Shown here: positions 72 through 8,454 of the stretch, piece after piece
How positions within the stretch are numbered: the stretch's first letter is position 1
Layout of the letters: every line of letters begins with the position of its first letter
Source of the DNA: Nocardioidaceae bacterium
Lineage (GTDB): Bacteria > Actinomycetota > Actinomycetes > Propionibacteriales > Nocardioidaceae
DNA length: 64,000 nucleotides
Direction of reading: 5' to 3'
NCBI GenBank assembly: GCA_017744365.1
Contig: JAGIBL010000002.1
Span: 930,001-994,000, forward strand
Notes under the pieces: generated by a model
What the model saw: the letters and a program-made list of their open reading frames with translations, nothing else
Databases searched by the model: none
Told to the model about the DNA's origin: nothing
Program-made: the position numbers and the translations under genes

Positions 72-1555
72 GCGAGGCGGTTCCCGAGGTTCCCGAGGTC
101 CCCTGGCGCCGGCTCGACCCGAAGATGCTGCTGGTGCATCCGGTCAGCGAGGTCGGCCGACTGGCGATCCCGCTGCTCCTGCTGGTGTTCCTCGGCAGCG
201 GCGGCATCGACGGCTGGCACGTGGCCGTCGTGGCGATCCCGGTCGCGCTCGGCCTGTGGCGCTATGCGACCACGCAGTTCCGGATCACCCCCGAGCACCT
301 CGAGCTGCGCGAGGGCATGATCGGGCGACACGTCACCCGGGCCCGGCTCGACAAGGTCCGCACCGTGGCCCTGGACGCCGGCCCGATCCACCGGGTGCTG
401 TCGCTGTCGAAGGTGAAGATCGGCACCGGCGACGACAACCGGCTGGAGCTGAACGCGCTCGGGACCGCCGAGGCGCGCGCACTGCGGTCCTCGCTGCTGC
501 ACCGGGTCGAGGAGCCCACCCTAGGCCCCGGCCTCGCGGACGGGATCGTCGCTCCCCCGGTGCTGGAGAGCGATGAGGTGCTGCTCCGGTTCGACCCGCG
601 CTGGCTGCTGCTGGCGCCGTTCACGGGGACCGGTCTGCTGATCGCGGCCGGTGCCGTCGGCGCCGGCTCGGGCCCGCTGCAGGAACCTGTCGGCAACCTC
701 GGCCAGCGGCTCTCCGACCGTGCCGACGGCATCCCGATCGTCGCCCTCGTGGCCGGCGGCGGGTTCCTCCTCGGCATCGCGCTCGTGGTGCTCTCGGTGG
801 CCGGGTACGCGCTGACCAACTGGGGCTTCCGGTTCTCCCGCGACCGGGCCGGGCGGTCCTGGCACATCACCAAGGGACTGCTCACCACCACCGAGACGAG
901 CGTCGACACCTCCCGGGTACGCGGGCTGTCGCTGTGCCGCCCCGCCGGGCTGCGACTGGTCAACGGCGGCACCGCGCGGGCGCTGGTGACCGGGCTCAAG
1001 GAGGACGACGACAGCAAGAGCTCCGCGCAGATCGCCCCGGCGGCGCCGTACCGGCTGGTGCACGACGTCTGCCTGCGGATCGCGGGCGACGACCTCGCGG
1101 TGGACGGCGCGCTGGTCGAGCACGGGCCACGGGCGGCGCGCCGCCAGCTGCTCCGGCCGCTGCGCGGGGTGCTCTGGCTGGTGCTGGCCGTGGCCGTCGT
1201 CGCGCTGTCCTTCGACCTGCCCTGGTGGGTGGCGCTGCTGCCCGCCGTGCTGGTTCCACTGGCGGTGTGGGCCGGGCGGGACCGGTACCGCGCGCTCGGG
1301 CACCTGCTCACCGCGCACCACCTGGTCGCCGGGGAGCCGAAGGTCAGCCGGCACCGCAACCTGCTGCTGCGCCGCGGCATCATCGGCTGGCGGGTCGAGC
1401 AGTCGTTCTTCCAGCGCCGCGCCGGCCTGGTCACCCTGGTCGCAACCACGGCCGCCGGCGAGAAACGGTACGCCGTCGTCGACCTCGCCGAGGACCGCGC
1501 CACCGCGCTCGCCCAAGAGGCCGTGCCCGGCCTGGTGGCCCAGTTCCTGGCCTGA
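68..1555 (+). CDS. PH domain-containing membrane protein (YdbT-like, bPH_2)
   Basis: This 495-residue membrane protein looks like the YdbT family: repeated bacterial PH-like (bPH_2) modules separated by paired membrane segments. Hydrophobic segments lie near residues 27-60, 178-200, 222-250 and 365-400. PH-like stretches follow at about 70-140 (with the typical FRITPEHLELREG start), 255-320 and 405-480 (LTAHHLVAGEPKVSRHRN). YdbS/YdbT pairs are known membrane proteins of unsettled function; a role in envelope stress or resistance to antimicrobial compounds has been suggested for Bacillus homologues. The GTG start at 68 overlaps the preceding stop by 4 bp, so it is translationally coupled to its partner. 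The gene is convergent with the SDR gene that ends at 1559. Confidence 0.85.
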   Translation: MSEAVPEVPEVPWRRLDPKMLLVHPVSEVGRLAIPLLLLVFLGSGGIDGWHVAVVAIPVALGLWRYATTQFRITPEHLELREGMIGRHVTRARLDKVRTVALDAGPIHRVLSLSKVKIGTGDDNRLELNALGTAEARALRSSLLHRVEEPTLGPGLADGIVAPPVLESDEVLLRFDPRWLLLAPFTGTGLLIAAGAVGAGSGPLQEPVGNLGQRLSDRADGIPIVALVAGGGFLLGIALVVLSVAGYALTNWGFRFSRDRAGRSWHITKGLLTTTETSVDTSRVRGLSLCRPAGLRLVNGGTARALVTGLKEDDDSKSSAQIAPAAPYRLVHDVCLRIAGDDLAVDGALVEHGPRAARRQLLRPLRGVLWLVLAVAVVALSFDLPWWVALLPAVLVPLAVWAGRDRYRALGHLLTAHHLVAGEPKVSRHRNLLLRRGIIGWRVEQSFFQRRAGLVTLVATTAAGEKRYAVVDLAEDRATALAQEAVPGLVAQFLA

Positions 1556-1558
1556 GCC

Positions 1559-2305
1559 TCAGATCAGCCGCTTGAGCAGGGGCAGCGGGGCGTGCTTCAT
1601 GACGACCGACATCGGGGCCCAGGGCAGGGGCGGGACGCAGGCGTCGGCGACCTCGCGCTCGATGGCCTTCACCATGGCGCGCACGCCCTTCTCGGTCGAG
1701 GACATCAGCGGCGTCGACTGCGCGACCTGGTCGTTCATCTCCGAGCGGATGTAGCCGGGGTAGAGCACGGTCACCTTGATCGGCTTGCCGTACAGCTCGG
1801 TCCGCAGACCCTCGGCGAGGTGCGCCACACCGGCCTTCGTCGCGGCGTACGTGGTCAGCGTCTTCGGCATCCCGCGCATCGCCGACATCGAGGAGATCAT
1901 CACGAAGTGGCCGGCGTTCTGGGCCCGGAAGATCTCCATCGCGGCCTCGGACTGCGCGAGTGCGGCCACGAAGTTCGTCATCGCGGTCTGCTTGTTCGCG
2001 TCGTACCGGCCGGTGCCCAGCGGCGCGCCCTTGCCCAGCCCGGCGTTGATGACGATCCGCTCGAGGGTGCCGAAGTCGGCCTGGAAGCCGCGGAAGACCT
2101 CGAAGACCTGGTCGTCGTCGGTCACGTCGAGCGCCCGGATCTCGACGCGGCGCGCGGGGTCGGCGGCGAGGATCTCGGCCTTGAGCTCCGCCAGCTTCTC
2201 CGTACGGCGGGCGCAGAGCGCGAGGTCGTACCCCTTGGCGGCGAACTGCCGGGCCATCTCGGCGCCGAGGCCGCTGCTCGCGCCGGTGATGAGGATCGTG
2301 CTCAT
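1559..2305 (-). CDS. SDR family oxidoreductase
   Basis: A 248-residue short-chain dehydrogenase/reductase. The N-terminal nucleotide-binding motif TGASSGLG is at residues 7-14, the NAG motif at 87-89, and the catalytic Ser138/139, Tyr153 and Lys157 (YAATK) are intact, so it should be an active NAD(P)-dependent oxidoreductase. The C-terminal 25 residues are hydrophobic and basic (ending LPLLKRLI), as in SDRs that associate with membranes. It is the last gene of a five-gene minus-strand operon, starting 9 bp after the histidine phosphatase stop; the rest of the operon handles acyl-CoA substrates, so a hydroxyacyl or ketoacyl substrate is likely. The exact substrate cannot be read from sequence. 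Confidence 0.85.
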   Translation of the reverse strand: MSTILITGASSGLGAEMARQFAAKGYDLALCARRTEKLAELKAEILAADPARRVEIRALDVTDDDQVFEVFRGFQADFGTLERIVINAGLGKGAPLGTGRYDANKQTAMTNFVAALAQSEAAMEIFRAQNAGHFVMISSMSAMRGMPKTLTTYAATKAGVAHLAEGLRTELYGKPIKVTVLYPGYIRSEMNDQVAQSTPLMSSTEKGVRAMVKAIEREVADACVPPLPWAPMSVVMKHAPLPLLKRLI

Positions 2306-2314
2306 GGCTACCCC

Positions 2315-2992
2315 TCAGCGGTAGGTGACGGCACCGGGGACGCCGTCGAGGTGGGACTGGTCGTTGTAGGTCAGCAGGTTCACCCCGCGGCTGCCCGTCA
2401 CCAGCCGGGTCAGTGCCGCGTTGACGGACATCCGGTTGAGCCGGGTCCAGAGGTCGGCCCGTCCGACCGCGGCACCCTCGCCCTCGGCGAGCACCGTGGC
2501 GACCGCCCACCCGATCGGCCCGCCTGAGGTGAACACCGCGACGGTGCCCTGCTGCGCCACCTCGACGGTCCGCTCCAGGGCCGCGTTCACCCGGGCACCG
2601 AAGCCGGCGAACGTCTCGGCGTAGTCGCGGTCCTCGCCCGCGATCCAGGCCGCGGTGGCGACCTCGAACCAGCGCTGGAACTCGGCCTTGGTCGGCTCCT
2701 CGTTGCCGTGCGGCGCCGGGTGCACCGCCAGCACGGAGAGGAAGTCGAACTCGTCCCAGCCCGGGTCGACCTCGACCGGGACACCGTGCCAGCCGGCCGC
2801 GCCGGCGCAGGTCTCCGCGGTCTCGCGGTGCCGGCGCATGGTGCCGTGCACGATCAGGTCCGCGCCGAGGGACCGCGCCGCCAGCGACTTGCCGAGCAGA
2901 CCGGCCTGCTCGAAGCCGGTCGGCGAGAGCGCGTCGTAGTCGTCGGCGCCGAAGGAGGCCTGGCCGTGCCGGACCAGGAGGATCTGACCCAT
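2315..2992 (-). CDS. Histidine phosphatase family protein (phosphoglycerate mutase-like)
   Basis: A 225-residue member of the histidine phosphatase superfamily. The phospho-acceptor motif LVRHGQ is at residues 6-11 (RHG 8-10). At the place where the second catalytic histidine normally occurs (SHGG), this protein has FTSGGPIG, so that His is a Ser; the end of the protein retains NDQSHLDG. This Ser variant marks a distinct subgroup and may alter or lower phosphatase activity. The ATG at 2992 overlaps the stop of the APH-like kinase (ATGA), which decides the start; a longer in-frame extension upstream lies inside the kinase gene and is rejected. In this operon it sits beside a predicted acyl-CoA kinase, so a dephosphorylating or housekeeping role towards phospho-intermediates is conceivable but unproven. 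Confidence 0.82.
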   Translation of the reverse strand: MGQILLVRHGQASFGADDYDALSPTGFEQAGLLGKSLAARSLGADLIVHGTMRRHRETAETCAGAAGWHGVPVEVDPGWDEFDFLSVLAVHPAPHGNEEPTKAEFQRWFEVATAAWIAGEDRDYAETFAGFGARVNAALERTVEVAQQGTVAVFTSGGPIGWAVATVLAEGEGAAVGRADLWTRLNRMSVNAALTRLVTGSRGVNLLTYNDQSHLDGVPGAVTYR

Positions 2993-4056
2993 CACAGGCT
3001 CCCGTCGATGACCCGCAGGCATCGCTGCTCGTAGTAGTGCACCGCCTGGCCGAACGCGGCGTAGACCTCGTTGGTGGTCTGGCCGTGGAACCAGCGGTAG
3101 TAGATCTGCTGGGCGATCACCGCGAACCGGAACAGCCCGTAGACCTCGTAGAACTTCCACTGCTCCGGGCTCACGTCGTAGCCCATCTGCGCGCAGTAGT
3201 AGGCCACGAGCTCCTCACGGGTGAACATCCCCGGTACGTTGCTCGGCTGACGGCGCACCAGCTGGAACATGTCGTCGTCGTCGGCCTGCACCCAGTACGA
3301 CAGCGTGCTGCCCAGGTCCATCAGCGGGTCCCCGAGCGTGGCCATCTCCCAGTCGAGAACGCCGACGATCCTGCTGGGGTCACGCTTGTCCAGGACCACG
3401 TTGTCGAAGCGGTAGTCGTTGTGGATCACGCAGTTCGCGACGTCCGCGGGCATCCGCGCCGCCAGCCAGTCCATCACCGTCTCGAAGCCGGGTGCGTCCT
3501 CGGTGATCGCGTGGCGGTACCGGGTCGACCAGCCGGTGATCTGCCGCTCGACGTACCCGGTGCCCTTGCCCAGCGCGGCGACGTCGGGGCGGCCGGTGTC
3601 CACCCGGTGCAGCCTGATCAGGGTGTCCACGAACGTGCGGCACAGGGCGCGAGCACCGTCCTCGTCGAGGGCGAGCGACTCCGGCAGGTCCTTGCGCGGG
3701 ATCAGCCCGTCGAGCCGCCGCATCACGTAGAAGTCCGAGCCGATCACGGACTCGTCGTCGCAGAACGCGACCATCTCGGGGACCAGGCCGAACGGCTCCG
3801 CGAGCGCGGACTGCACCCGGTACTCGCGGCCCATGTCGTGCGCCCCGGCGGCCTTCCGGCCGGCCGGCGGGCGGCGCAGGATCAGGTCCTGGGTCGCCGT
3901 ACGGAGGGAGTAGGTGAGGTTCGACGCGCCGCCGCCGAACTGCTGGATCTCCACCTCGCCGTCCAGCTCGACGCCCTGCTTGCCGAGCCAGGCGCGCACG
4001 GCCTCGACGTCGAAGGCGTCCTCCTCGCGGACCGGTGCCGCGCCTTCGATGCTCAT
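2992..4056 (-). CDS. Phosphotransferase family protein (APH/ACAD10-11-type, LvaA-like kinase)
   Basis: A 354-residue aminoglycoside-phosphotransferase-fold protein. The glycine-rich nucleotide loop GGGASNLTYSL is at 41-51, the catalytic loop IHNDYRFDN at 211-219 and the metal-binding DWE at 235-237, so all kinase residues are present. This subgroup accompanies acyl-CoA dehydrogenases: it is the N-terminal half of human ACAD10/11 and equals LvaA of Pseudomonas putida, which phosphorylates 4-hydroxyacyl-CoA before dehydratase-like removal by the partner dehydrogenase. Here the dehydrogenase is a separate gene two positions upstream, with an SDR between. Starts and stops overlap on both sides (ATGA at 4053-4056 and 2991-2994), so expression is coupled. 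Antibiotic phosphorylation is unlikely given the context. Confidence 0.87.
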   Translation of the reverse strand: MSIEGAAPVREEDAFDVEAVRAWLGKQGVELDGEVEIQQFGGGASNLTYSLRTATQDLILRRPPAGRKAAGAHDMGREYRVQSALAEPFGLVPEMVAFCDDESVIGSDFYVMRRLDGLIPRKDLPESLALDEDGARALCRTFVDTLIRLHRVDTGRPDVAALGKGTGYVERQITGWSTRYRHAITEDAPGFETVMDWLAARMPADVANCVIHNDYRFDNVVLDKRDPSRIVGVLDWEMATLGDPLMDLGSTLSYWVQADDDDMFQLVRRQPSNVPGMFTREELVAYYCAQMGYDVSPEQWKFYEVYGLFRFAVIAQQIYYRWFHGQTTNEVYAAFGQAVHYYEQRCLRVIDGSL

Positions 4057-4823
4057 GCGTCCCCCATCGCGTTCAGCCGGGCCGCCTGCTTGCGCATCAG
4101 GGCGTCGTACGCCGGCCGGTCGGTGGTCTTCAGCCCGTACGCCGCCCGCGCGGCCTCGTCGGGCAGGATCAGCTCCTCGCCTCGGTCCAGCGCGGCCAGC
4201 ACCTCGGCGGCGATCTCCTCGGGACCGAGCGGGGCGTTCGCGACCAGAGCGCCGATGACCGCGCCGACCGCGGCGTCCGAGCCCTGCAGGTGATCAACAA
4301 GCCCGGTGCGGAAGTACGACGGGCAGATCGCGTGCGCGGTGATCCCGTACGACGCCAGCTCGTGGCCGAGGGTCTCGGTGAGCGCGACCACGGCCGCCTT
4401 CACCGCGTTGTACGACGCCATCCCCGCCGGGTGCACGAGTCCGGCGAGCGAGGCCGTGTTCACGATCGTGCCGCTGCCCTGGGCCTTCATCATCGGCACG
4501 AAGACGCGCACGCCGCGGACCACGCCGAACAGGTTGATCTCGGTGATCCACTGCCACTCGTCGAGCCCGGCGACGTCGATGCGGCCGCCACCGGCGACAC
4601 CGGCGTTGTTGAACAGCAGGTCCAGCCCACCCCAGCGCTCGTCGACCCGGGCCCGCGCGGCCGCCCAGTCCGCGTCGCTGCGCACGTCGAGCTGCAGGTG
4701 CTCCACGGCGTCGAGCGGAGACGGGTTGAGGTCGGCGCTGATCACCTCGTCGCCGCGATCCAGGTACGCACGGCACAGAGCGAGTCCCAGGCCCGACGAC
4801 CCCCCGGTGACGAAGACCCGCAT
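4053..4823 (-). CDS. SDR family oxidoreductase (LvaD-like position in operon)
   Basis: A 256-residue classical SDR. TGGSSGLG at 6-13 is the cofactor loop, NNAG is at 72-75, and the catalytic Ser125, Tyr138 (YNAVK) and Lys142 are present. Asp31-Leu-Asn after the second strand suggests NAD(H) preference. It overlaps the acyl-CoA dehydrogenase stop at its ATG (4823) and the kinase start at its stop, placing it between the two enzymes of the proposed 4-hydroxyacyl-CoA route; in the lva operon an SDR (LvaD) reduces 4-ketoacyl-CoA to the 4-hydroxy form, and a similar role fits here by inference. The frame stays open upstream into the dehydrogenase gene, but that extension has no SDR features. Confidence 0.85.
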   Translation of the reverse strand: MRVFVTGGSSGLGLALCRAYLDRGDEVISADLNPSPLDAVEHLQLDVRSDADWAAARARVDERWGGLDLLFNNAGVAGGGRIDVAGLDEWQWITEINLFGVVRGVRVFVPMMKAQGSGTIVNTASLAGLVHPAGMASYNAVKAAVVALTETLGHELASYGITAHAICPSYFRTGLVDHLQGSDAAVGAVIGALVANAPLGPEEIAAEVLAALDRGEELILPDEAARAAYGLKTTDRPAYDALMRKQAARLNAMGDA

Positions 4824-6070
4824 CACAGGTGCTTCCCGATCTCGAGCCGGGCGACCAGGCCGCGGTGGACCTCGTCCGGACCGTCGGCCAGGCGGAGCGC
4901 GCGAGCATTGGTCCACATCGCCGCGAGCGGGAAGTCGTCGGTCATCCCGCCGGCGCCGTGCAGCTGCATCGCCATGTCGATGACCTGCTGGGCCACGTTC
5001 GGCACGATGACCTTGATCTGGCTGACCTCGGACAGCGCCTGCAGCGGGCCGCCGGTGTCGAGCTTCCAGGCGGCGTTGAGCACCAGCAGGCGGGCCTGGT
5101 CGATGGCGATCCGCGCGTCCGCGATCCGCTCGGGGTTGCCGCCGAGCTTGACCAGCGGCTTCCCGAACGCGGTCCGCGAGACGCCGCGCCTGATGGCCAG
5201 CTCGAGGGCCAGCTCGGCCTGCCCGATCAGGCGCATGCAGTGGTGCACCCGGCCCGGGCCCAGCCGGCCCTGGGCGATCTCGAAGGCCCGGCCCTCGCCG
5301 AGCAGGACGTTCGCCGCCGGCACCCGGACGTCGGTGAACGAGACCTCGCCGTGCCCGACGGGTTCGTCGTGGACGTGCATGGTGGTGAGCAGACGCTCGA
5401 CCTTCACGCCGGGGGTGTCGATCGGCACCAGCACCATCGTGTGCCGGTGGTGCCTGTCGGCCTCGGTGTTGGACAGCCCCATGAACACGAGGATCCTGCA
5501 GTCCGGGTGACCCACCCCGGTGGAGAACCACTTGGTCCCGTTGATGACGACCTCGTCGCCGTCGATAACCGCGGTGGCGGCCATGTTGGTGGCGTCCGAG
5601 GAGGCCACCGACGGCTCGGTCATGCAGAACGCCGAGCGGATCCGGCCGTCCAGCAGCGGGTCCAGCCACTGCTCCTGCTGCTCCGGGGTGCCGTACTTGA
5701 GCAGGACCTCCATGTTGCCGGTGTCCGGGGCGTTGCAGTTGAACACGTACGGCGCCAGGAAGGTGGCGCGGCCCATGATCTCGGCCAGCGGGGCGTAGTC
5801 GGTGTTGCTGAGGCCGGCACCGCCGTGGGTGCCGTACCGCTCGGCATAGGGGCCTTCGTGGCCGGCCGGGAGGAAGAGGTTCCAGAGGCCCTGCGCGCGG
5901 GCCTTGGCGCGCAGCTCGCCCATGATCGGCGACTCCTCCCAGCGACCCGCCTCCCGCGCCGCGGCCACGTCGCGGTGGTACTGCGCCGCGACCGGCTCGA
6001 TCTCCTCGGTGACGAACGCCGAGACCAGGGCGGCGAGCTCAGCGGCCCGCGGGGAGGGGCTGAAGTCCAT
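4823..6070 (-). CDS. Acyl-CoA dehydrogenase family protein (ACAD10/11-like)
   Basis: A 415-residue FAD-dependent acyl-CoA dehydrogenase, full length for the family. Recognisable blocks are FCMTEPSVASSDATN (flavin contact, about 152-166), TKWFSTGVGHPDC, the GRLGPGRVHHCMRLIG helix around 280-295, and the C-terminal ADGPDEVH. In ordinary acyl-CoA dehydrogenases the catalytic Glu sits in a YEG-type motif at that last position; here it is Asp, as in the ACAD10/11 and LvaC subgroup. It is the first gene of the five-gene operon and is followed directly by SDR and kinase genes with 4-bp overlaps. Together these features suggest it acts on phosphorylated 4-hydroxyacyl-CoA rather than simple saturated acyl-CoA; this is an inference from family and context. 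Confidence 0.88.
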   Translation of the reverse strand: MDFSPSPRAAELAALVSAFVTEEIEPVAAQYHRDVAAAREAGRWEESPIMGELRAKARAQGLWNLFLPAGHEGPYAERYGTHGGAGLSNTDYAPLAEIMGRATFLAPYVFNCNAPDTGNMEVLLKYGTPEQQEQWLDPLLDGRIRSAFCMTEPSVASSDATNMAATAVIDGDEVVINGTKWFSTGVGHPDCRILVFMGLSNTEADRHHRHTMVLVPIDTPGVKVERLLTTMHVHDEPVGHGEVSFTDVRVPAANVLLGEGRAFEIAQGRLGPGRVHHCMRLIGQAELALELAIRRGVSRTAFGKPLVKLGGNPERIADARIAIDQARLLVLNAAWKLDTGGPLQALSEVSQIKVIVPNVAQQVIDMAMQLHGAGGMTDDFPLAAMWTNARALRLADGPDEVHRGLVARLEIGKHL

Positions 6071-6091
6071 GGCCGTGACCCTAGCGGGCGG

Positions 6092-7873
6092 TCAGCGGCA
6101 CGCGGAGGTGATCTTCACCCCGTTGGGAGCAGGCAGGATCCCGGGGGTGAAGTCGAAGACCCCGTCACCGCGCTGGTCCGGGCCGGTGCGCAGATCGGCG
6201 GTCACGGTGACCTGCTGACCGGGCTTCAGCGCGAGCGGCAGCAGCGCGACCTGGCGGCCCTGGTGCTGGTCGGCGGTGATCGAGTGCGACTTCCCGTCCA
6301 CCGTCAGGCCCGTGATCTCCCCGCCGTACGGGCCGTAGAGCCGCAGGTTGAACGCGATCGTGCCCTTCGGTGCGTAGCTGCCGTCGCCGGTGACCCAGAC
6401 AGACAGCCCGGAGACGTCCTTCGGTGCCGTCGAGGTGAGCACGACCGACGCGCGCAGGTCCTGGGCCCCGTCGTTGCGGCAGTCCACCGCCGAGACCGCG
6501 CTGCGGTACTGGAGGTAGTAGTCCATCTTCGCGGCGGTGCTGTCGTTGAGGTACATCCCGACGTGCGGGCGCGGGTCCTCCTCGGCGGCCAGGTCGCCGG
6601 CGATGGCGGAGTCGGTGAGCCGGGCCTGCAGCTGCGGGTCGCGCAGCCACAGCAGCACCCGGTGCTGCTCGACCCCGGCGGCCAGTCCCTTGACCGCGAG
6701 CTCCTGGCTGCCCTGGCCGCTCATCACCGTGTCGAAGATCCGCTGCGCGACGCGCTCGAAGAAGTCGTCCTGGGCGACCGGGTCGTCGAGCGCCTGGTAG
6801 GTCTGGTTGAGCAGCGCGGCGACCACGTTCGTCGGCGCCAGGGTGATCCCGTTGCCGACGCCGATCGGCCCGGTGCCCTGCATCATCGCGGCCAGGGCCA
6901 GCGGGTCCACCGAGACCACGCCGTCGAGCTTCACGTGCTGGGTCCGCTCGACCATCAGCGCGGCGATCTGGGCGGCCTCGGGAAAGTCCGGGGTGAAGTT
7001 CGCGTCGCGCAGGTCGGAGGCGACGGTCGGGCCGTACTGCTGCGCGGTGTCCTTGGGCAGCCTCACCACCGGGCCGCTCAACCCGCGGTTGACGTCGGTG
7101 GCCGAGCCCTGCCAGCCCATGGTCACCCGCCCGTTCTCGGCGTGCAGCACCGCCAGAGAGCCGGGCAGGCCACCGGTGGAGCGCAGCTCGGCCGGGTTCT
7201 GCACGATGAGCAGGTAGTTCCGCGGTGTGCCCTCGCCGAGCAGGTTCGGGAGCAGCTCGAAGGCGGTCGAGGCCGCGGTCGCCGCGGTCCGGGCGCTCTC
7301 CACCTGCTCCTGCAGGTCGCCGACCAGGTCGTTGAACGGGAAGGTCAGCCCGTTGGCCTCGATCTCGTCGAGGTCCGCGCCCGCCTTCGCGATCGAACCG
7401 GCCGCTCGCCGTACGTCGGGAGTGAGCTGCCGGACCAGGCCGACGTCGATCTGGCCGCCCTTCGGCCGGAACTCCCCGGTCTTCACGGCCTGGCTGAGGC
7501 GCAGCGCCACCGGGGCGTTGTCCCGGGTGGCCGTGTCGAGCACGGCCGAGACCGTCTGCACCGCACCGATCGTCCTCCCGGCGAACGGCACGTGCCGGCC
7601 GATGTCCCACAGCAGCCCGTCGGTGGCATCGTGCGCGGAGCGGGTCTTCGCCCGCAGGTCGGTCAGGGCCTTGCCGGCACCGTCGAAGTCACCGGCGCGG
7701 ACGAGGTCCTGCACCTGGTCGGCGCGCTCGCGGGCGTCGGTCAGCGCGCGGGCAGCGGTGACCGCCTGCCAGACGAAGAGGCCGACGGCGACGAGGACGA
7801 CCACGGCGGCGGCGATGCCGAGCTGCCGCGGCGTGGGTCCGGAGAAGCGCCTGTCCGAGGTCGAGTCACCCAC
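6092..7873 (-). CDS. DUF4012 domain-containing membrane-anchored protein
   Basis: A 593-residue protein with a short cytoplasmic N-terminus, one membrane anchor at about residues 18-38, and a long extracytoplasmic part. The anchor is followed by a helical stretch and then the DUF4012 core, recognisable from GRHVPFAGRTIGAVQTV, the LLIVQNPAELRSTGGLPGSL block and GVVSVDPLALAAMMQGTGPI. DUF4012 proteins are common in actinobacteria and Patescibacteria, usually near exopolysaccharide or surface genes; the biochemical role is not established. The core resembles LytR-type envelope proteins only loosely. It starts 11 bp after the stop of the sortase-substrate gene upstream on the same strand, so the two form a small surface operon. 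Confidence 0.85.
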   Translation of the reverse strand: MGDSTSDRRFSGPTPRQLGIAAAVVVLVAVGLFVWQAVTAARALTDARERADQVQDLVRAGDFDGAGKALTDLRAKTRSAHDATDGLLWDIGRHVPFAGRTIGAVQTVSAVLDTATRDNAPVALRLSQAVKTGEFRPKGGQIDVGLVRQLTPDVRRAAGSIAKAGADLDEIEANGLTFPFNDLVGDLQEQVESARTAATAASTAFELLPNLLGEGTPRNYLLIVQNPAELRSTGGLPGSLAVLHAENGRVTMGWQGSATDVNRGLSGPVVRLPKDTAQQYGPTVASDLRDANFTPDFPEAAQIAALMVERTQHVKLDGVVSVDPLALAAMMQGTGPIGVGNGITLAPTNVVAALLNQTYQALDDPVAQDDFFERVAQRIFDTVMSGQGSQELAVKGLAAGVEQHRVLLWLRDPQLQARLTDSAIAGDLAAEEDPRPHVGMYLNDSTAAKMDYYLQYRSAVSAVDCRNDGAQDLRASVVLTSTAPKDVSGLSVWVTGDGSYAPKGTIAFNLRLYGPYGGEITGLTVDGKSHSITADQHQGRQVALLPLALKPGQQVTVTADLRTGPDQRGDGVFDFTPGILPAPNGVKITSACR

Positions 7874-7884
7874 AGGGGGCAGTC

Positions 7885-8454
7885 TCAGGCCTGACCGGCC
7901 ACCGTGTCGGCGTTTTCGGCACGACGGCGCGCCATCACGACGGCGCCGGCGCCGACCACGAGCAGCGCCATGCCGCTGAGGAAGATCAGGAAGTTCGGGC
8001 CGCCGGTGTTCGGCAGGTCGCCGCCGTTGTCCGGGGGCGAGACCGCGCTGCCCCGCGGGAGCACGGTGATCATGATGGTCCGCTCCCAGGTCGCCGCGGA
8101 TGCCGCGGTCCGGGCTGCCTTGGCCGCCTTGCGGGCGGTCGGCTGGGTGTAGGTGCAGGTGCCGTGCAGCGGGATCTTGGTGATCTTGGTGACCGCCGGC
8201 GCGGTGTAGGTGGTCTGGAACGGCGAGCCGTTGCTGCCCTGACCGGTGCGGACCACGCCGTTCCAGGTCAGGTGCCAGGCGCAGGTCACGTCAGAGGTGC
8301 CGGTGGCGGTGAAGGTCTCGCCGCCGAAGAGGACCTGGCGGTTCACGGTGAGGTCGATGTTGACGTCCGGGTAGGCGTGCGCCGCGGGGGCGAGTCCCGC
8401 CACCGCGAGCAGCGCCACGAGCGCTGCTCCGCACAGAGAAACGAGCTTCTTCAT
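7885..8454 (-). CDS. LPXTG-type cell wall-anchored protein
   Basis: A 189-residue exported protein. It begins with a signal peptide (MKKLV, hydrophobic 5-22, AHA cleavage at 25-27). Two cysteines (58 and 100) could form a disulphide in the small beta-rich middle. The C-terminus is a sortase signal: LPNTG at 147-151, a hydrophobic stretch at 154-175 and the basic tail ARRR. It should therefore be covalently anchored to peptidoglycan by a class E/F-type or general sortase. The ATG at 8454 has a GGGAG ribosome site 8 bp upstream and starts the signal peptide; a longer upstream frame gives an unlikely cysteine/arginine-rich leader. DUF4012 follows 11 bp downstream. No other domain was recognised. 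Confidence 0.82.
   Translation of the reverse strand: MKKLVSLCGAALVALLAVAGLAPAAHAYPDVNIDLTVNRQVLFGGETFTATGTSDVTCAWHLTWNGVVRTGQGSNGSPFQTTYTAPAVTKITKIPLHGTCTYTQPTARKAAKAARTAASAATWERTIMITVLPRGSAVSPPDNGGDLPNTGGPNFLIFLSGMALLVVGAGAVVMARRRAENADTVAGQA

Follow-up and report, generated by a model that had tools for sequence, protein, structure and literature searches.

The window analysed here is a stretch of 64,000 nucleotides from a Nocardioidaceae bacterium (assembly GCA_017744365.1, contig JAGIBL010000002.1, positions 930,001 to 994,000). On its minus strand it carries a five-gene operon (window positions 1559-6070) which encodes, head to tail, an acyl-CoA dehydrogenase (ACAD), a short-chain dehydrogenase/reductase (SDR1), an APH-type kinase, a histidine phosphatase homologue (HP) and a second short-chain dehydrogenase/reductase (SDR2). 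We conclude that this operon probably encodes a pathway of the ACAD10/11 type, bringing 4-hydroxyacyl-CoAs into beta-oxidation; the substrate is predicted, and its class, a gamma-hydroxy or keto acid, is suggested by homology. The link of ACAD10 and ACAD11 to the breakdown of 4-hydroxy acids dates only from 2024-2025 and came from a comparison of mammalian enzymes with proteins of Pseudomonas and Burkholderia. The operon is a bacterial system amenable to study, in which the kinase, the dehydrogenase, the two SDRs and the phosphatase-like protein each have a gene of their own, and it has versions in Actinomycetota, Pseudomonadota, Myxococcota and Deinococcus. It also makes testable why such kinases recur with proteins of phosphatase families: a HAD domain in ACAD10, histidine phosphatases with the usual second catalytic histidine (His type) in some lva operons, and here a homologue with a serine at that position (Ser type).

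The dehydrogenase and the kinase

The dehydrogenase (4823..6070, 415 aa; this and the following genes are on the minus strand) had been described in the original prediction as carrying an aspartate at the usual position of the catalytic glutamate, in the motif ADGPDEVH. We could verify this: the residue is D396 (codon 4883-4885), it stands where ordinary ACADs carry a glutamate, and it aligns within the ADGPDEVH motif of mouse ACAD11 with the catalytic aspartate D753 (PMC12440821; this and the other papers are cited from the accessible parts of their text). The enzyme also has a putative phosphate site, R269, H277 and R280, in GRLGPGRVHHCMR (HHCMR, with the motif HCMR; within 5231-5266), matching R626, H634 and R637 of ACAD11. 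The latter residues have been modelled holding the 4-phosphate, and non-conservative changes at them hit the dehydrogenase step hardest (PMC12440821). Among solved structures the best matches are 4hr3, a putative acyl-CoA dehydrogenase (E 8e-175), and mouse and human ACAD11 (around 1e-112), the next ACAD reaching only 1.5e-39. Identity is 68% to 4hr3, whose source organism we take to be Mycobacterium abscessus, 51% to a paralogue in the same genome, 48-49% to ACAD11 and 34% to the dehydrogenase of an lva operon carried by a plasmid (L176).

We placed the enzyme in a tree of 104 ACAD rows, made by a quick method with one distant ordinary ACAD as outgroup and with a program warning of long branches. 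The window ACAD falls inside a starred clade of 96 rows (99) with mouse and human ACAD11, apart from the ordinary ACAD, so that the check suggested with the original prediction came out on the side of ACAD11. Within this clade, the window ACAD belongs to a further starred clade of 48 rows (99), which consists of 4hr3 and of 47 ACADs with a Ser-type HP no more than 6 kb away. Four of the 51 HP-linked rows (L047, L050, L055 and L109) lie outside the smaller clade, and the dehydrogenases of lva-type clusters (L176-L180 and L050) are placed outside the larger one. The HP label changes 6 times on this tree, at least 4 of the changes being forced by starred branches, against a mean of 35 for shuffled labels. 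Since rows were chosen partly by HP, this speaks for clustering with repeated gain or loss, and not for frequency; rows labelled as lacking HP come mostly from 40 ACAD-anchored places in Actinomycetota (see below). By catalytic aspartate, phosphate site and grouping, the window enzyme appears to be an ACAD of the ACAD10/11-LvaC type, for which phosphate elimination is predicted.

The kinase (2992..4056, 354 aa), presumed to act on 4-hydroxyacyl-CoA, matches Pfam PF01636 with an E-value of 8.5e-51 and was rightly said to have all its catalytic residues: H212, D214 and N219 are retained in HxDxxxxN and D235 in DWE. Its matches among solved structures are 9o56 (E 5e-78, 39% identity), 3dxp (3e-48, 32%) and the ACAD11 kinase domain (8e-48, 29%), and it is 22% identical to LvaA of L176. 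Models of antibiotic and thiamine kinases score far under their cut-offs, e.g. 22.9 bits for APH(3') where 205 are required. The window kinase thus looks nearer to that of ACAD11 than to antibiotic kinases. The closest solved kinase by sequence, 9o56, bears the name 'Aminoglycoside phosphotransferase'; a Cytobacillus plasmid cluster without an annotated HP has a kinase to which it is 61% identical. The plasmid collection has gaps in its gene tables, and 'not annotated' is weak evidence in this and the other plasmid cases given below.

The five genes match, in order, Acyl-CoA_dh, adh_short, APH, His_Phos_1 and adh_short, all above the Pfam cut-offs, and they lie where first reported, on the minus strand. 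SDR1 (4053..4823, 256 aa from an ATG start, with a GTG at 4826) has the catalytic set S125-Y138-K142. SDR2 (1559..2305, 248 aa) has S139-Y153-K157 and matches NCBIfam NF006099/PRK08251 above its cut-off. Overlaps of 4 bp had been claimed throughout; this is true of the SDR1/kinase junction (ATGA), the sole unambiguous case, but the ACAD/SDR1 and kinase/HP overlaps measure 1 bp with the ATG start (TGATG) and 4 bp with the GTG start. An added second SDR had also been announced; SDR2 is present and starts 9 nt past the end of HP, but at 2305-1559 it falls outside the range 2315..6070 given for the operon. Genes for a bacterial PH-domain (bPH_2) protein and a DUF4012 protein flank the five and are uninformative on function. 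Promoter and terminator scans of window positions 1400-6400 found nothing (shuffled sequence gives 0.1 and 0.8).

Three kinase/ACAD pairs are present in the host genome: that of the window, C7 and C15. Phosphate-site residues and catalytic aspartate are the same in the three ACADs, C15 reading HSMR for HCMR. The C7 pair (C7:760588-762719) has in its surroundings, judging open reading frames (ORFs) by eye, a TetR-like regulator, a thiolase, SDRs, a MaoC-like protein and two further ACAD-like genes, and no HP was found in the fetched locus (C7:755000-768000, L040). The ACAD of the C15 pair (C15:47039-49107; L041 about 6000-8300) is 39% identical to that of the window and varies the ACAD10/11 motif, reading QHRLGYGRLRHSMR and IDGPDEVH. 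Elsewhere, an ACAD of the family on Tistrella mobilis pTM2 (L271 6001-8267), 57.8% identical to the window ACAD, adjoins a 'Putative HPr kinase/phosphorylase'; no APH kinase is annotated in this stretch, where a different kinase possibly fills the same role. On Cupriavidus necator H16 pHG1 (L052 6001-7227), an ACAD of the ACAD10/11 type has no kinase annotated within 6 kb.

The Ser-type histidine phosphatase homologue

HP (2315..2992, 225 aa from an ATG start, with a GTG at 2995) keeps the nucleophile H9 in its RHG motif (R8 H9 G10), the arginines R8 and R54 and the acid E81, but the second catalytic histidine is replaced by S156 (codon 2525-2527). It shares the fold and the RHG motif with branch 1 of the histidine phosphatase superfamily (PGAM5, PhoE, Aquifex HFP 9mmh, CobC), whose full pocket of R, H, R and H it lacks by this substitution. 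Serine occupies the position in all 80 homologues from genome loci, all 10 from plasmids and all 37 loci from relatives. The seed matches numbered more than 591, and the 80 are the best of them by similarity to the window HP; the 37 come from a separate collection that may repeat species of the 80. Because the seed pattern spanned the RHGQAS region only, the serine itself was not selected for, whereas closeness to the window HP was. As a control we took 36 loci, dropping three from the host's own genome for lack of a profile match (L182, L183 and L185). With the HP of a Stutzerimonas lva cluster this made 34 rows, of which two (L204 and L205) proved to be members of the Ser-type family and the other 32 all have histidine, as do the aligned chains of the Protein Data Bank (PDB). 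Ser-type HPs form one side of a branch (100/98). According to the accessible text of PMC12051542, histidine family phosphatases as a whole show strong conservation of the second histidine.

The original prediction presented the histidine phosphatase as an addition to a known scheme. The gene is there, but its presence is not novel as such, a histidine phosphatase being reported from the levulinate cluster of P. citronellolis LA18T (PMC6692424, in part), and the serine had gone unnoticed. The new element is the Ser-type subfamily, and a limited search of the open-access literature, mostly without full texts, found no description of the substitution or of the five-gene cluster. Plasmid records name Ser-type proteins 'histidine phosphatase family protein' or 'phosphoglycerate mutase', names that may lead readers to take an enzyme that is inactive or altered for an ordinary phosphatase.

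Within 6 kb of HP, the kinase is found in 52, SDR2 in 39 and ACAD in 32 of the 80 genome loci, some of which are cut by contig ends. Kinase or SDR2 is near HP at 60 of the 80 and, among the loci from relatives, at 32 of the 37. In 41/80 and 19/37 loci the end of the kinase gene lies immediately upstream of HP, and in 17/80 and 25/37 the start of SDR2 lies immediately downstream. Two of five other sampled genomes of the same genus (L233 and L241) have all five genes together, with identities of 45-84%, and the full order ACAD-SDR-APH-HP-SDR is found again in a Pseudoalteromonas (a gammaproteobacterium) and in a Rhodobacteraceae strain (an alphaproteobacterium). Given this recurrence, the five-gene set is not due to chance. 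Variants of the cluster occur in Streptomyces, Azospirillum, Ideonella, Deinococcus and Caballeronia. None of the ORFs of the HP loci examined joins kinase and HP in a fusion.

We considered and rejected the idea that HP is obligately tied to the kinase, since there are HP-SDR2 pairs without a detected kinase and some HPs are solitary. In a Pseudomonas (L108 7938-8711) a Ser-type HP has no detected cluster partner, and SDR2 is its only detected partner in L093, L102, L263 and L264. A role of Ser-type HPs outside the kinase route is likely in some hosts.

Proposed pathway and competing explanations

The inputs of the proposed pathway would be gamma-hydroxy fatty acids, opened gamma-lactones, or 4-oxo acids once these are reduced. 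By homology with ACAD10/11, the APH-type kinase would phosphorylate the 4-hydroxyl of the CoA thioester and the Asp-type ACAD would eliminate the phosphate through its Arg/His/Arg site, giving a 2-enoyl-CoA. The part of the two SDRs can be approached through their cofactors. An aspartate at the end of the second strand is the usual signature of NAD-type enzymes and a pair of arginines that of NADP-type ones. SDR1 has D31 at this place in 57 of 58 rows and SDR2 has R33-R34 in 75 of 75, and these opposite conserved signatures are the reason why we propose that the two work in opposite directions. They might turn the 4-hydroxyl, via a 4-oxo intermediate, into the configuration accepted by the kinase. 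Such an inversion by paired oxidation and reduction would fit the preference of the ACAD10 kinase, which yielded roughly fourfold more product with the R form (PMC11342911, in part). Alternatively, SDR2 may reduce 4-oxoacyl-CoA, the role of LvaD, and SDR1 may oxidise the subsequent 3-hydroxyacyl-CoA.

The residues of HP suggest a phosphate-binding editor or regulator. With nucleophile, both arginines and acid kept and the second histidine gone, it may hydrolyse slowly, perhaps the free 4-phospho acid, or may only bind and signal. Free 4-phospho acid has been detected in cells (PMC11342911). HP would likely bind the phosphorylated intermediate or its free acid, and it would then either remove this compound slowly, i.e. 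edit, or report its level to the kinase, two options which we hold to be about equally probable. One might speculate further that Ser-type HP is devoted to 4-hydroxyacyl-CoA metabolism and is for the most part no hydrolase: having given up its second catalytic histidine, it would bind 4-phosphoacyl species, or edit them very slowly, and in this way adjust the activity of the kinase. It would then be the counterpart in bacteria, on a different and unrelated fold, of the impaired HAD domain in mammalian ACAD10. This last idea is tentative and, in our view, more apt to fail than to hold.

Several observations weigh against the pathway or against so close a partnership of HP with the kinase. Neither an acyl-CoA ligase, nor a regulator, nor another gene of beta-oxidation was seen adjoining the operon. 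Twenty of the 80 genome loci of HP, some of them cut by contig ends, lack all four partners up to a distance of 6 kb. Among the 37 loci from relatives the commonest neighbour is SDR2 (31), ahead of the kinase (21) and ACAD (11), and five have none. Two genomes of the phylum from outside the family carry HP alone (L268 and L269). The partnership with SDR2 can persist without detected kinase or ACAD, which weakens the claim that HP serves the kinase alone. Conversely, a Ser-type HP adjoined ACAD in 0 of the 40 ACAD-anchored places in the phylum Actinomycetota; these were drawn from a longer list of matches, some are cut by contig ends, nine have a kinase match, and the count leaves aside two weak hits resembling HP (L146 and L159). 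Finally, the ACAD of the C7 pair is 58% identical to ACAD11, compared with 48-49% for the window ACAD. Being closer, the C7 pair may be the host's true route for 4-hydroxy acids, and the window pair may serve another hydroxyacyl-CoA.

This difference in identity is also a point in favour of an explanation that keeps the chemistry and changes the substrate: the operon's kinase and ACAD would phosphorylate and eliminate a hydroxyl on another CoA thioester, e.g. one whose acid is branched, terpenoid, longer-chain or a steroid side chain, with the C7 pair as the host's general 4-hydroxy-acid enzyme. The presence of three kinase/ACAD pairs in one genome argues for divided substrates, and 47 of the 51 HP-linked ACADs stand with 4hr3 in a starred clade of their own (99), apart from ACAD11. 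Yet the residues of the 4-phosphate site and the catalytic aspartate are the same in the three ACADs, apart from the HSMR of C15, and the neighbourhood of the operon points to no particular substrate. We regard this explanation as unlikely, though it is the most serious of the competitors.

It is markedly less probable that HP is an ordinary working phosphatase of the main route, stripping the phosphate from 4-phosphoacyl-CoA. This was suggested for the LA18T cluster (PMC6692424, in part), and R8, H9, R54 and E81 are all retained in the window HP. However, in ACAD10/11 and LvaC the ACAD itself eliminates the phosphate (PMC12440821 and PMC11342911, in part), so that a phosphatase in this route would merely undo the work of the kinase. 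Moreover, the window HP has lost the second histidine, which the Stutzerimonas lva HP keeps and which is conserved according to PMC12051542. Domain names alone would suggest something simpler still, an ordinary beta-oxidation operon in which a gene resembling aminoglycoside kinases is adjacent by chance. The score gap, the motif and the tree of the ACAD contradict this, the kinase matches the kinase domain of ACAD11, and kinase and ACAD occur together in distant bacteria, which makes a chance neighbour hardly credible. An ACAD10/11-type route for 4-hydroxyacyl-CoAs is thus the explanation that we prefer.

Comparison with lva operons and with ACAD10 and ACAD11

The operon had been assigned to the logic of LvaA/LvaC as well as to that of ACAD10/11. 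The family assignment stands, with the ACAD in the starred clade of ACAD11 and the kinase matching the ACAD11 kinase domain, but the Lva side does not. The lva operon lvaABCDEFG has in common with the window a kinase, an Asp-type ACAD with HCMR and an SDR. In L176 its order is regulator, kinase, LvaB, ACAD, SDR, acyl-CoA synthetase, DUF485 and symporter. LvaB corresponds to DUF6285, a plasmid match of which is annotated 'lvaB: 4-hydroxypentanoyl-CoA kinase subunit LvaB', and the host genome has 0 matches to PF19802 (DUF6285). Beside the window operon, where bPH_2 and DUF4012 stand, we found neither lvaE-G (acyl-CoA ligase, DUF485, symporter) nor LvaR. With the low identities to the ACAD and kinase of L176 given above, the sequences place the window operon on the ACAD10/11 side; it is not an lva operon.

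Lva-type operons, which serve the use of levulinate, were seen on plasmids of P. aeruginosa (p12939-PER, L176 3785-13115) and Stutzerimonas (L179 2748-12354, ending inside the symporter gene). The ACAD of the former (L176 7405-8577) is 34% identical to ACAD11 in our comparison, whereas LvaC is given as 62% identical to ACAD10 and 56% to ACAD11 in PMC11342911 (in part). A histidine phosphatase is found in some lva clusters too, as in LA18T and in Stutzerimonas L179, where it lies between LvaB and ACAD and retains the second histidine that is a serine in the window HP. In Azospirillum sp. B510 pAB510b (L180 6363-9703), a histidine phosphatase gene past kinase and DUF6285 is split by the IS21-type element ISAzs2, and the region of its second histidine is of the His type. 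We rejected replacement of LvaB by HP as a general rule: Azoarcus KH32C has DUF6285 with a Ser-type HP, and Stutzerimonas has DUF6285 with a His-type one.

A close parallel is with the mammalian enzymes. ACAD10 and ACAD11 phosphorylate the 4-hydroxyl and then eliminate the phosphate (PMC12440821 and PMC11342911, in part), and by sequence they have the same APH-type kinase, Asp-type ACAD and R/H/R site. Kinase and ACAD are fused domains there and separate genes in the window, which has two SDRs in addition. The phosphatase-like part of ACAD10 is a HAD domain, whereas that of the window has the histidine-phosphatase fold. According to the accessible text of PMC11342911, this HAD domain, with only one of the two aspartates of DxD, has next to no phosphatase activity and holds the kinase in check. 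The parallel with HP is suggestive. If it is true, two lineages independently put a disabled phosphatase beside the same kinase.

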